DNA from: Geobacillus kaustophilus
Lineage (GTDB): Bacteria; Bacillota; Bacilli; Bacillales; Anoxybacillaceae
Direction of reading: 5' to 3'
Length of the DNA stretch: 64,000 bases
Assembly (NCBI RefSeq): GCF_000948285.1
Contig: NZ_JYBP01000003.1
Span: 434,001-498,000, forward strand
In this document: piece after piece, positions 23,537 through 37,343 of the stretch
Numbering within the stretch: position 1 is the stretch's first letter
Layout of the letters: each line of letters opens with the position of its first letter
Position numbers and translations under genes: made by a program
Notes under the pieces: generated by a model
What the model saw: the letters and a program-made list of their open reading frames with translations, nothing else
The model's database searches: none
What the model was told of the DNA's origin: nothing

Positions 23537-23568
23537 AAAAAGAGCCGGAGGGGCTCTTTTCTTTTTTT
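23537..23568 (+). terminator. Terminator of the yqeG-yqeM operon
   Basis: AAAAGAGCC (23537-23545) pairs with GGCTCTTTT (23552-23560), followed by CTTTTTTT. Confidence 0.85.
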
Positions 23569-23652
23569 CATCCGGATGTGGAGACCAGGGGGCGCATGTA
23601 TCACTATAAAGCGCTGTGAAGATCGACACGATTCGGCCGCTGTATGTTTTCT

Positions 23653-23851
23653 GCAAAGAAAAAATACAGAGTTTTGCAAGGAAAAGTGCAGAGAATGACA
23701 ACTTGACATGGAGCCTCTGGGGGCGTGATTAAAAAGCCAGGAAGCCAGCAATATCAAGGGCTGGCTATGCCTAAAAAGGCTATCACGCCCCCACTCCATG
23801 TCAAGTTGGCCTAAGCCAAATTCTCTGCAGATCTCTGCATTTTTATTTTGC
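23653..23851. repeat. Large multi-segment inverted repeat (possible structured RNA or MITE)
   Basis: Nested arms pair in order from outside in. Outermost are GCAAAGAAAAAATACAGAG (23653-23671) and the similar reverse complement at 23833-23851. Then come TGCAGAGAAT with ATTCTCTGCA (23687-23696, 23820-23829), AACTTGACATGGAG with CTCCATGTCAAGTT (23700-23713, 23794-23807), and GGGGGCGTGAT with ATCACGCCCCC (23719-23729, 23782-23792). Inside lies AGCCAGC..GCTGGCT, and a side hairpin TTGGC(CTAA)GCCAA sits between arms. The three inner main arms are perfect. It contains no ORF. Confidence 0.8.
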
Positions 23852-23994
23852 AATAAACACGCTGTACAAATGAAAGATGAGAAAAATTTTAAAAAAGATG
23901 TGTGATTTAGAAGGATTATGAAGATATTGGTCGAAATATGCAAAATATAGGACAAACGATCTAAGGGAAAACGTCTAGTGGGGTTGAACTGAAA

Positions 23995-26187
23995 ATGACC
24001 AATATTTATGCCCATACGCCACGGGAAAATGGACAGGAATGGCATCGGTTAGATGATCATTTGTTAAGTGTAGCGGAAATGGCACAGTCGTTCGCTGCTC
24101 CCTTTCAAGGGGAAAGAGTGGCTTATTTATGCGGTCTTTTGCATGACTTAGGCAAGTTTCACCCTCTTTTTCAAGAATATTTACAAAAGCAAGCGAGCGG
24201 AGAAATGAGCCGCAGTATTCCCCATGCGATTTGGGGAGCGGCGTTCATGTACCAGTTGTATTGGAAAAAAATGAATGATCCGCATGCTTGGCAATGGTTT
24301 TCGTTGCCGATCGCTGCCCATCATGCGGGTTTGCATTCGTCTGCCTATTTATCACTTACCCTCGAAGAGAAGTTAGAAAAACAACGTTCACATTTTGTAG
24401 AGATTTTACGGCAAGCCGAGTGGTTCTTAAAGAAATTTGTATTTCCATACATGCAAAGTGCGACAAAAATTCCCTCATTTTCTGAGACAGAGAGGGAGAT
24501 GTGGATTCGCTTGGTCTTTTCGGCGCTTGTTGACGCTGATTATTTAGATACAGAGCGACACTTCCAGCCAGAGCTTTCTCCACTCCGACAGCCGACTGTT
24601 TCGATAACTGATTTATGGAATATGTTTGTTGCTGACCAGGAACAATTAACAAGTCAAGCGGATGATACAGCAGTTAATCGGATGCGAAGAGAAGTGTATG
24701 AGGAATGCGTCTGCGCCGCAGCCAGATCGCAGGGAGTATATCGTTTGACGGTGCCGACTGGAGGGGGAAAAACGAGAAGCAGTTTAGCTTTTGCGTTGAA
24801 ACATGCAGTGGAACACCGGCTTGACCAGATCATTGTCGCAATCCCATATACAAGCATTATCGAGCAAACGGCGAACGTATATCGCGGCATTTTCGGGAAC
24901 GACGCCGTGCTGGAGCACCACAGTCAGATTGAAGTGGATGACGAGAATGAAGCAGCGGATGAACGGCTCATCCAACACCGTCTCTCTGCGGAAAATTGGG
25001 ACGCTCCGCTCATTGTCACAACAACAGTGCAACTGTTTGACAGTTTGTTTAGCAATCGTCCAAGCAAAGTCCGCAAACTGCATAACTTGTCGCGTAGCGT
25101 CATTATTCTTGATGAGGTTCAATCGCTCCCGCCGGAGTTGCTAAAGCCGACATTAGACGCACTTGCCATGCTTGTCCGTCATTGTCAAACAACGATTGTT
25201 TTATCGAGCGCCACCCAGCCATTTTTTGAAGAAAGCCGATTTTTGCATGCATTCTCACAAATGGCAGTCGAAGAAATTTTGCCGCCGCCGATTGTGAACC
25301 GTCATTTTCAACAAATGCAACGGGTGGACTATGACATATGGAAATCACCTATTTCATTGCCAAAGCTTGCCCGTTTCATCCGAGAACAAAAGCAATTATT
25401 GGTTGTCTTTAACACGAGAAAAGAGGCGAAAGAGTGCGTTGAACTTCTTCAGGAAGATGAGGGGGTATTCCATCTTTCCACCCTTCTTTGCGGCGCGCAT
25501 CGTCGTCGAATTTTAAAGGAAGTTCGTGAACGTCTGCGGAAAAACCAACCCGTTCGCCTGATCAGCACACAAGTCGTGGAAGCAGGGGTTGACTTGGATT
25601 TTCCTATTGTCATGCGGCAAATGGGGCCACTTGACCGGATTGTCCAAGCGGCAGGGCGCTGCAATCGCGAAGGGAAAATGGACAAGGGAAAAGTGATTAT
25701 TTTTGAAACGGAAGAAATGCCAAGCCCAAGAGGCCCGTATCGAACAGCGATGGAAACAGCACGGTCCTTATTGGCTCAACGACATCCTAATGATTTACAT
25801 AACCCGAATATATTCCGGGAATATTTCCGCCGTTTATTCGCCTCGGTGGATGTGGATTCGAAAAACATCCAAAAAGATCGGGAAACGCTTGATTATCCTT
25901 TAGTCGCTGAAAAATATCGTCTGATTGATCAGGATACTGTTTCCGTTATCGTCCCATACGCGGAGGCGTCGGAATACTTGCGAACGTGGGAATCTTCTCC
26001 TTCCCGCTATTCATTTCGCCGTTTGCAACCATATATGATCCAGCTTTATCGTTTTGAGGCCGAGAAGAAAGAAAAGGACGGATGGCTGCGGGAAGTGGCA
26101 GACAGTGTTTATGAATGGCTTGGCGATTATGATGAACGGATAGGCATTAAAGAAGAAGTCCACGATCCGTTCAGTCTGATTGGATAA
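23995..26187 (+). CDS. cas3: CRISPR-associated helicase/nuclease Cas3 (type I-C)
   Basis: The 730-residue effector nuclease-helicase degrades DNA marked by the I-C Cascade. The N-terminal HD nuclease domain has LLHDLGK (His50-Asp51). The superfamily 2 helicase follows: Walker A PTGGGKT (254-260), DEVQ box (373-376), motif III SSATQP, and the C-terminal motifs STQVVEAGVDLDFP and QAAGRCNREG. HD-helicase fusion and position at the head of the operon are typical of type I-C. The ribosome binding site before the ATG is weak, which may keep Cas3 low relative to Cascade. It ends 25 bp before cas5. Confidence 0.95.
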   Translation: MTNIYAHTPRENGQEWHRLDDHLLSVAEMAQSFAAPFQGERVAYLCGLLHDLGKFHPLFQEYLQKQASGEMSRSIPHAIWGAAFMYQLYWKKMNDPHAWQWFSLPIAAHHAGLHSSAYLSLTLEEKLEKQRSHFVEILRQAEWFLKKFVFPYMQSATKIPSFSETEREMWIRLVFSALVDADYLDTERHFQPELSPLRQPTVSITDLWNMFVADQEQLTSQADDTAVNRMRREVYEECVCAAARSQGVYRLTVPTGGGKTRSSLAFALKHAVEHRLDQIIVAIPYTSIIEQTANVYRGIFGNDAVLEHHSQIEVDDENEAADERLIQHRLSAENWDAPLIVTTTVQLFDSLFSNRPSKVRKLHNLSRSVIILDEVQSLPPELLKPTLDALAMLVRHCQTTIVLSSATQPFFEESRFLHAFSQMAVEEILPPPIVNRHFQQMQRVDYDIWKSPISLPKLARFIREQKQLLVVFNTRKEAKECVELLQEDEGVFHLSTLLCGAHRRRILKEVRERLRKNQPVRLISTQVVEAGVDLDFPIVMRQMGPLDRIVQAAGRCNREGKMDKGKVIIFETEEMPSPRGPYRTAMETARSLLAQRHPNDLHNPNIFREYFRRLFASVDVDSKNIQKDRETLDYPLVAEKYRLIDQDTVSVIVPYAEASEYLRTWESSPSRYSFRRLQPYMIQLYRFEAEKKEKDGWLREVADSVYEWLGDYDERIGIKEEVHDPFSLIG

Positions 26188-36094: not shown

Positions 36095-37343
36095 CAGGCG
36101 TGTTGATTATCCAATAAAATCCAAAGGGTATAGAAAAAAGAGCACCTTTCCTGTAGAATGTGAGTAGCGACACAAACAAACCCAGGAGGTGCTCTCTATG
36201 AACAAGCATACCACACTCCCGAATTTGATGCAAAAACTTGTTTCGGATGAAGAGATTCAACTGATTGCCGAAGCGGTTGGGTATCGTGATTCGTCTCGAA
36301 CCTTTACGTTGCGCGAGTTGATTCACTTCTTCCTGCTGGCCGCCATGCATCAATGGAAAAGCTTTCGCCACGGAGCCGATGTGGGGCCTCTGTATGGATT
36401 GCCGCGATTCCATTATTCAACTGTATCCAAGAAAGCGAAAGAAGTTCCCTATGACATCATGAAACGCTTGTTGGCGTTGATCATTTCCAAGTGCAACCGC
36501 CAAACCCGCCGTTCGCTTCGGTTTCCCAAACCGCTTCGGGTGGTGGATTCGACGACCGTCACGGTCGGGAAAAACCGCCTGCCATGGGCGCCGTATCACG
36601 GCGAACGCGCCGGAGTGAAGCTGCACGTCGCGTATTCGCCGGAATCCTCGTTGCCGGCAGACGTGGTGGAAACCATCGGACTGCGTCATGATGGCCCGGT
36701 GGGAGAACAGTTGACGAACGCTCAACAAGTGCTGGTGGAAGACCGGGCGTATTTCAAAATCGAACGCCTCGATCGATTTGTGGAGCAGCATCAGCTCTTT
36801 GTCATTCGGATGAAGGACAACATCGAACTTCATCAGAAAAAAAGCTTGAAACGCCTTTCCAGCACATCCTCATCGGTTCAAGCCGACTTCACGTGCCAGT
36901 TGGGGACGAAACAATGCCGCTCCACCAAGCGTCACCGGGTGGTGATCTTTCGAGATGCGAATGGCCGCGACATTCGGGTCGTGACGAACCTCTTCCATGC
37001 GTCTGCGGAAACCATTGCCGACATGTACCAACAACGTTGGACTGTTGAGGTCTTTTTCCGTTGGGTGAAGCAATATCTGAATGTCCCGACCTTGTTTGGC
37101 ACGACGGAAAATGCGGTATACAACCAACTGTTTGCGGCGTTCATCGCGTATGTGTTGCTGCGATGGCTGTATGATCAAACCAAAAAACAGACGAACGTCT
37201 CTCTTTCCTTCATTTCGTTCGTTCGCCGTTTTTTCTCTGGGCAGCTTCCTCTCGATTGGAAATCCGGGATGGCCGCTGCTTTGTTTGAGTATGCCCAAAT
37301 TTATGGAAGGCGTATGTATAATTTTGGATAATCAACACTCGTG
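36095..37343. mobile_element. IS4-family insertion sequence, 1249 bp, inside a CRISPR spacer
   Basis: Terminal inverted repeats read CAGGCGTGTTGATTATCC at the left and CACGAGTGTTGATTATCC inward from the right, with one transposase gene between and a 9-bp target duplication outside. The protein resembles the IS5377-type IS4 elements common in Geobacillus. The same ends are found on the 162-bp element at 11040-11201. Confidence 0.93.
36189..37331 (+). CDS. IS4-family DDE transposase (IS5377-like)
   Basis: The 380-residue transposase has an N-terminal DNA-binding region (MNKHTTLPNLMQKLVSDEEI, DUF4372-like) and a DDE core: Asp in RVVDSTTVTV, Asp in VLVEDRAYF and the IS4 signature Y-x2-R-x3-E-x6-K in YQQRWTVEVFFRWVK. 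It is intact. CCAGGAGG lies 7 bp before the ATG. Its 3' end runs almost to the right inverted repeat. It could also act on the short element at 11040-11201. Confidence 0.93.
   Translation: MLSMNKHTTLPNLMQKLVSDEEIQLIAEAVGYRDSSRTFTLRELIHFFLLAAMHQWKSFRHGADVGPLYGLPRFHYSTVSKKAKEVPYDIMKRLLALIISKCNRQTRRSLRFPKPLRVVDSTTVTVGKNRLPWAPYHGERAGVKLHVAYSPESSLPADVVETIGLRHDGPVGEQLTNAQQVLVEDRAYFKIERLDRFVEQHQLFVIRMKDNIELHQKKSLKRLSSTSSSVQADFTCQLGTKQCRSTKRHRVVIFRDANGRDIRVVTNLFHASAETIADMYQQRWTVEVFFRWVKQYLNVPTLFGTTENAVYNQLFAAFIAYVLLRWLYDQTKKQTNVSLSFISFVRRFFSGQLPLDWKSGMAAALFEYAQIYGRRMYNFG

Follow-up and report, generated by a model that had tools for sequence, protein, structure and literature searches.

A hairpin cassette in an IS21-type miniature element next to Geobacillus cas genes is shared with insertion sequences of other families

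In Geobacillus kaustophilus, a large nested inverted repeat lies between a methyltransferase-like gene and a cas3-like gene at 23995 (both names are read from translations), within the 64,000-nucleotide stretch of contig NZ_JYBP01000003.1 that was analysed here and is referred to as the window. An earlier note on this DNA placed the repeat at 23653-23851 and offered several readings of it: a novel structured RNA, a miniature inverted-repeat transposable element (MITE), or a boundary element of the adjoining CRISPR (clustered regularly interspaced short palindromic repeats) island. The repeat is real, and much of its description holds: a terminator-like site precedes the element, behind the methyltransferase-like gene; the inner hairpin (GCCAGC/GCTGGC) and the side hairpin TTGGCCTAAGCCAA are both present; and the nested perfect arms measure 10, 15 and 12 bp, two of them one base longer than had been claimed. 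The outer arms are 77% complementary over 39 nt, with the tips TGTTTTCTGCAAAG and TTTTGCAATAAACA, and the fold of the whole element is far more stable than that of shuffled sequences (z = -11.3 on the + strand and -10.9 on the - strand; none of 200 shuffles is equally stable on either strand). Our analysis suggests, with a probability of roughly 0.85, that the repeat is a non-autonomous MITE of the IS21 type that contains a cassette shared with other insertion sequences (ISs).

The same genome holds 15 near-full copies of the element at 94-100% identity, two of which lack the left tip. These copies share boundaries equivalent to window positions 23645 and 23859, which make the element slightly larger than first described. 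Eleven copies have exact 14-nt tips at both ends, and eight of them are flanked by target duplications of 6-9 bp, one with a mismatch; the other three have none (all judged by eye). The CGCTGTA words that had been called a weak hint of a target duplication are in fact an exact 7-bp duplication around the element. Some match to the element occurs in 26 of 41 genomes, the own genome counted, and near-full copies (97-98% identity) occur in four congeners. Two congeners, G010 and G013, have the same junction at the cas flank with the element absent, which indicates that the element was inserted at this locus. The search at other loci, by which the earlier note proposed to recognize a MITE, thus came out in favor of one, with the near-full copies and the empty alleles both found. 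The element is short and non-coding and has terminal inverted repeats; in these features, in its copy number and in the empty sites of relatives it is like bacterial MITEs in general, but its interior is unlike theirs, being a cassette that is conserved in structure and sequence and common to full-length ISs of other families. One of the copies in this genome (L394) is split inside its left end by ~1.5 kb of inserted DNA.

The ends of the element point to the IS21 family. Most congeners contain ends that share 82-88% identity with the left end (~50 bp), and the open reading frames (ORFs) beside three of these resemble IstA by eye. The right tip, when inverted, is 88-95% identical to IS21-type left tips. 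There is also a complete IS21-type relative of 2462 bp in the congener G009 (locus L392), which matches the MITE at 88% over ~50 bp on the left and 83% over 42 nt on the right. Its long ORF (IstA) scores 240 bits against NCBIfam transpos_IS21 (cut-off 160), and its second ORF matches Pfam IstB_IS21. The element is classed as an IS21-type MITE because its ends resemble those of this istA- and istB-bearing element. According to PMC10122671, IS21 ends carry two multiple repeats on each side, with IS5376 of Geobacillus stearothermophilus as prototype. The MITE is like IS5376 and its IstA/IstB-encoding family in having TG...CA tips, repeat motifs at either end and short target duplications; it is unlike them in lacking istA and istB, in its length of 215 bp versus ~2.4 kb, and in carrying a three-way-junction cassette. 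It consists of a structured, transferable cassette of ~106 bp with a set of IS21-type end repeats on either side, and IstA and IstB from a related IS21 element most probably act on these ends in trans, moving the MITE and producing the 6-9 bp duplications. In the own genome, a search with the left end found one place outside the MITE copies, an IS21 copy interrupted by a MITE. An IS21-like tip directly adjoins a MITE at L391. At L085 (974-1908), a core is flanked and overlapped by two ORF fragments that look IstA-like by eye; this locus may represent an IS21 deletion derivative at an intermediate stage.

The central part of the element, hereafter the core, matches sites in other genera that lack the MITE ends. 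In 18 aligned cores it forms a near-palindromic three-way junction, composed of stem P1, a one-sided CCTCT bulge, stem P2 and two hairpins (Table 1); 89.7% of the cells are paired and both sides have changed in 15 of 33 pairs. None of 500 shuffles equals the alignment in percentage of paired cells, in both-side counts or in covariation score; for the count of further pair types, 13 of 500 do. A larger alignment comprises the 86 representatives that could be anchored out of 107 cores with less than 90% mutual identity, and in it several pairs of both P1 and P2 show covariation; the homolog-built covariance check that had been suggested for this DNA is positive. The representatives also conserve a G.A mismatch at pair 5 (65 of 86) and the bulge, although the conservation of the bulge is partly selected: the search pattern that contributed 78 of the 178 source loci has the 5' arm and bulge fixed. 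A conserved fold with compensatory changes is what a structured RNA would display, and is also compatible with a DNA hairpin.

Table 1. Features of the window element and its surroundings (window coordinates)
Feature	Position	Strand	Basis or remark
Mobile element, 215 bp, IS21-type non-autonomous MITE, tips TG...CA	23645..23859	+	common copy boundaries, target duplications
Target-site duplication CGCTGTA, left copy, 7 bp	23638..23644	.	exact repeat around element; relatives have one similar site, element-free
Target-site duplication CGCTGTA, right copy, 7 bp	23860..23866	.	exact repeat around element
Left end, imperfect repeats TGCAaaNaAAAATaCAGAG-like (by eye)	23645..23698	+	82-88% over ~50 bp to IS21-type left ends
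Right end, most of side hairpin and end repeats	23807..23859	+	83% over 42 nt to the far end of L392; tip inverted, 88-95% to IS21-type left tips
Conserved three-way-junction cassette (core)	23701..23806	+	model, covariation, presence in other IS families
Stem P1, 5' arm, 13 bp, partner 23794-23806	23701..23713	+	
One-sided bulge CCTCT, conserved	23714..23718	+	78-84 of 86 anchored representatives per position; partly search-selected
Stem P2, 5' arm, 11 bp, partner 23782-23792	23719..23729	+	
Hairpin P3, variable, GCCAGC/GCTGGC	23744..23765	+	
Hairpin P4, GCC-TAAAAA-GGC	23769..23780	+	
Perfect arm pair, 10 bp	23687-23696 / 23820-23829		
Perfect arm pair, 15 bp	23699-23713 / 23794-23808		
Perfect arm pair, 12 bp	23718-23729 / 23782-23793		
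Side hairpin	23806-23819		
Terminator-like site	23538-23560		upstream of element

The core does not correspond to a known RNA family. At the gathering threshold, Rfam matched only CRISPR-DR9 in the window and no family for the core, and in five loci searched at E up to 1 it gave two matches, both far under the gathering score and off the core. The suggestion of a novel structured RNA is thus upheld in one part, namely a conserved, covarying core with no Rfam match; RNA action is not supported, and the wobble pattern, on small counts, does not track the strand of the transposase transcript (see below). A promoter role for the conserved TTGACA was also considered and rejected: no -10 hexamer was seen by eye, and the local scan found no excess of promoter-like sites (one, versus 1.2 expected by chance). 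No description of the cassette was present among the literature matches listed, and we know of no cassette, conserved in both sequence and structure, that has been passed among unrelated transposase families.

The core is carried by ISs of several such families. Comparison of copies within genomes reveals ISs with the core 54-98 bp from one end. The cassette follows the transposase stop codon and precedes the neighboring IS end; its distance from the stop is commonly 3-21 bp in IS256 and IS3, and in other families it reaches ~140 bp. Among the 178 core loci tallied, which include several copies of a single element, clustering of ORFs with the 3' end toward the core at 200 bp or less yields 25 loci for IS256, 19 for IS3, 7 for IS30, 4 for ISLre2 and 2 for ISL3. 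A BLAST comparison with reference transposases, built from families already seen, finds the 3' end of a transposase or intron reverse transcriptase facing the core within 300 bp in 62 of the 178 loci (IS256, 24; IS3, 19; IS30, 8; ISLre2, 4; IS110, 4; ISL3, 2; group II intron reverse transcriptase, 1). Representatives are named above cut-off by NCBIfam as IS3, IS21, IS30, IS110, ISLre2 and IS256, and the ISL3 protein is named by Pfam. IS110 is present as two lineages (L110 and L346), which are 64% identical and have the core at ~275 and 258 bp, respectively. Many of the remaining core loci resemble MITEs in intergenic DNA, some with IS21-type ends; one such group has the ends GGCTCTTCGCTAT, presumably an ISL3-type motif, and an 8-bp duplication in L256. 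MITE-like elements of ~300 bp with tips near TTATATATAGTATC carry the core in many Bacillus-group genomes (L206, L213, L222, L248 and others); an attempt to place this group gave no assignment to an IS family. In L134 (1392-2501) ~240 bp separate the end of a group II intron reverse transcriptase from a core that follows it, and in L274 an apparent IS4-type fragment, judged by eye, lies 169 bp from a core.

The cassette is a transferable module shared between these IS families. The genome G293 contains an IS3 and an IS256 element whose only mutual match is a 108-bp stretch, at 85% identity, that stops at the core edges. Moreover, for 12 of 43 transposase-borne cores the most similar core sits in a different IS family, as in the case of L266 (IS3) and L368 (IS30), which are 90% alike. 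The core model matched 71 of 299 Bacilli genomes, corresponding to 46 of 118 genera. An exact 26-base pattern gave at least 120 matches in genome_contigs, and the 80 loci listed are all Bacillota by name, 78 of them with a core-model match. Nine plasmid records carry the core, among them an Aeromonas-labelled plasmid and an Aliarcobacter plasmid; the latter has, in a resistance cluster, a diverged core (L060, 3501-3586) with aph(3')-IIIa on one side and the ErmL leader on the other. A phage origin of the cassette was rejected, as no core match was found among 50,697 phage records and no stretch in viral_contigs has the exact 26-base pattern.

What the host elements may have in common is their mode of transposition. 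PMC9333248 names eight copy-out-paste-in families (IS1, IS3, IS21, IS30, IS256, IS110, ISLre2 and ISL3). The core accompanies seven of these eight, IS21 and ISL3 by way of MITE ends. A Pfam comparison of 105 of the 133 remaining tail-facing ORFs, 28 having been left out by hand as short or as twins from duplicate loci, showed no further transposase family with two or more members among the matches listed. DDE_Tnp_1 transposases are, to our knowledge, not of the copy-out type. In 101 Bacilli genomes they account for at least 291 of at least 830 transposase profile matches (rve, at least 301; Transposase_mut, at least 238), so that their absence beside the core is unlikely to reflect mere rarity, with the caveat that the loci are not independent. 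As a cis-acting DNA hairpin, the cassette would help the copy-out step, for example by aiding donor-primed replication or by helping a single-stranded intermediate become circular. Such a cis role is our leading guess, which we infer with less than even confidence. The fuller proposal is more tentative: that this is an undescribed, horizontally exchanged hairpin module that marks copy-out-paste-in transposons (IS3, IS21, IS30, IS256, IS110, ISLre2 and ISL3) and acts in cis on their single-stranded or circular intermediate, with a host replication or nucleoprotein factor recruited through the strand-specific CCTCT bulge.

Several observations weigh against the account given so far. The own genome yielded no intact IS21 with matching ends. 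The presence of the cassette in the IS21 and ISL3 families rests on MITE ends, and two ISL3 genes adjoin a MITE with no clear ownership of the core. In L099, L104 and L136 the transposase match near the core is head-facing or antisense. The orientation of the cassette relative to the transposase varies among families (in the inspected cases it is opposite in IS3 and ISLre2, the same in IS30 and IS110, and both in IS256). The Pfam neighbor tally, the one place where families beyond those already seen were sought, covers the best 25 of 114 matched families, and a single-member transposase family could be hidden in it. Within IS256, the core is present in L117 and L327, and 10 relatives with transposases 75-85% identical to that of L117 are without it. 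Four of the IS256 elements (L152, L154, L155 and L157) have just a short stretch followed by a TTTACACA-type end, and three places in G082 resemble L154; the cassette is therefore dispensable in such IS256 relatives, which have nothing between the stop codon and the IS end. Six others (L148, L150, L151, L153, L158 and L163) have an unrelated long hairpin, 'module B', in this interval, which raises the possibility that any strong hairpin might do. Module B was considered as a second widespread cassette and rejected, as it matched in just 4 of 200 Bacilli genomes.

Three other explanations have to be set against the MITE and its cis-acting cassette. The element ends ~135 bp upstream of the cas3 start, and it could be thought to regulate or bound the CRISPR-cas island. 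This is highly improbable: copies lie at many other sites and relatives share the cas-flank junction without the element, there is no fixed association with cas genes, and promoter-like sites are at chance level. The boundary reading is accordingly unsupported, a CRISPR-linked RNA is rejected by the copies elsewhere and the empty sites in G010 and G013, and the insertion has no particular tie to CRISPR. An RNA-level device, stabilizing the 3' end of transposase mRNA or blocking transcription that enters or leaves the IS, is a rather doubtful alternative. Its appeal lies in the position of the cassette 3' of a transposase or reverse transcriptase match in 62 loci, the very stable fold and the different long hairpin at the same position in other IS256 elements. 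The conserved bulge and G.A mismatch, however, would be superfluous for a plain barrier, and the window MITE has no gene. In addition, a fold that acts in mRNA is expected to favor G.U wobbles on the transcribed strand. On the + strand, G.U versus A.C counts are 5 versus 10 in 14 cores whose - strand is in the mRNA, and again 5 versus 10 in 22 cores whose + strand is; in 83 other cores they are 40 versus 87 (two special pairs are omitted and the counts are small). Since the bias of A.C over G.U is equal for both mRNA strands, selection does not seem to follow the transposase transcript, within the limits of these counts, and a fold acting within transposase mRNA is unsupported. The wobble pattern somewhat favors action as DNA or a distinct transcript of the - strand.

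The cassette could also be a selfish mobile hairpin that inserts beside IS ends and is then carried along, which we consider improbable, although less so than a CRISPR function. The sharp 108-bp boundaries between unrelated ISs, the occurrence of both orientations and the cores whose nearest relative is in a different family would all fit such an origin, as would the bases flanking the core, which by eye lengthen the stem with a sequence that differs by host element. Against it, no target duplication was seen around the cassette in the inspected flanks, and the cassette almost always lies on the 3' side of the transposase.

Imperfect palindromes with an asymmetry by which a protein can distinguish the two strands are known from repetitive extragenic palindromic (REP) sequences and bacterial interspersed mosaic elements (BIMEs), integron attC sites and the single-strand origins of rolling-circle plasmids. 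The cassette is like them an imperfect palindrome, whose asymmetry may serve in the same way, and unlike attC sites in that no attC-type motif was noticed in it by eye. Structured RNAs borne by ISs include the omega-RNA of IS200/IS605 and IS607 and the bridge RNA of IS110. The cassette shares with these a conserved, covarying structure inside insertion sequences; unlike them, it is common to several unrelated transposase families, whereas each of those RNAs belongs to one recombinase type, and it is known here as a covarying fold that may be RNA or DNA. MITEs are common, and the novelty lies in the structured core module, which is genuinely unusual. If the cassette serves copy-out, it would offer a way to study how host replication makes a circle from the figure-eight intermediate, and would account for the interior DNA that small elements retain; if it is a selfish hairpin, it would be a new level of mobility, in which one mobile DNA is carried by another. 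Covariation and a deep fold near cas genes need not signal a CRISPR RNA.

Elsewhere in the window, a separate IS appears to have inserted into the CRISPR array: the segment 36083-37373 lies between CRISPR repeat units and contains a DDE_Tnp_1 transposase match at ~36525-37157 (G000:C3:470525-471157).
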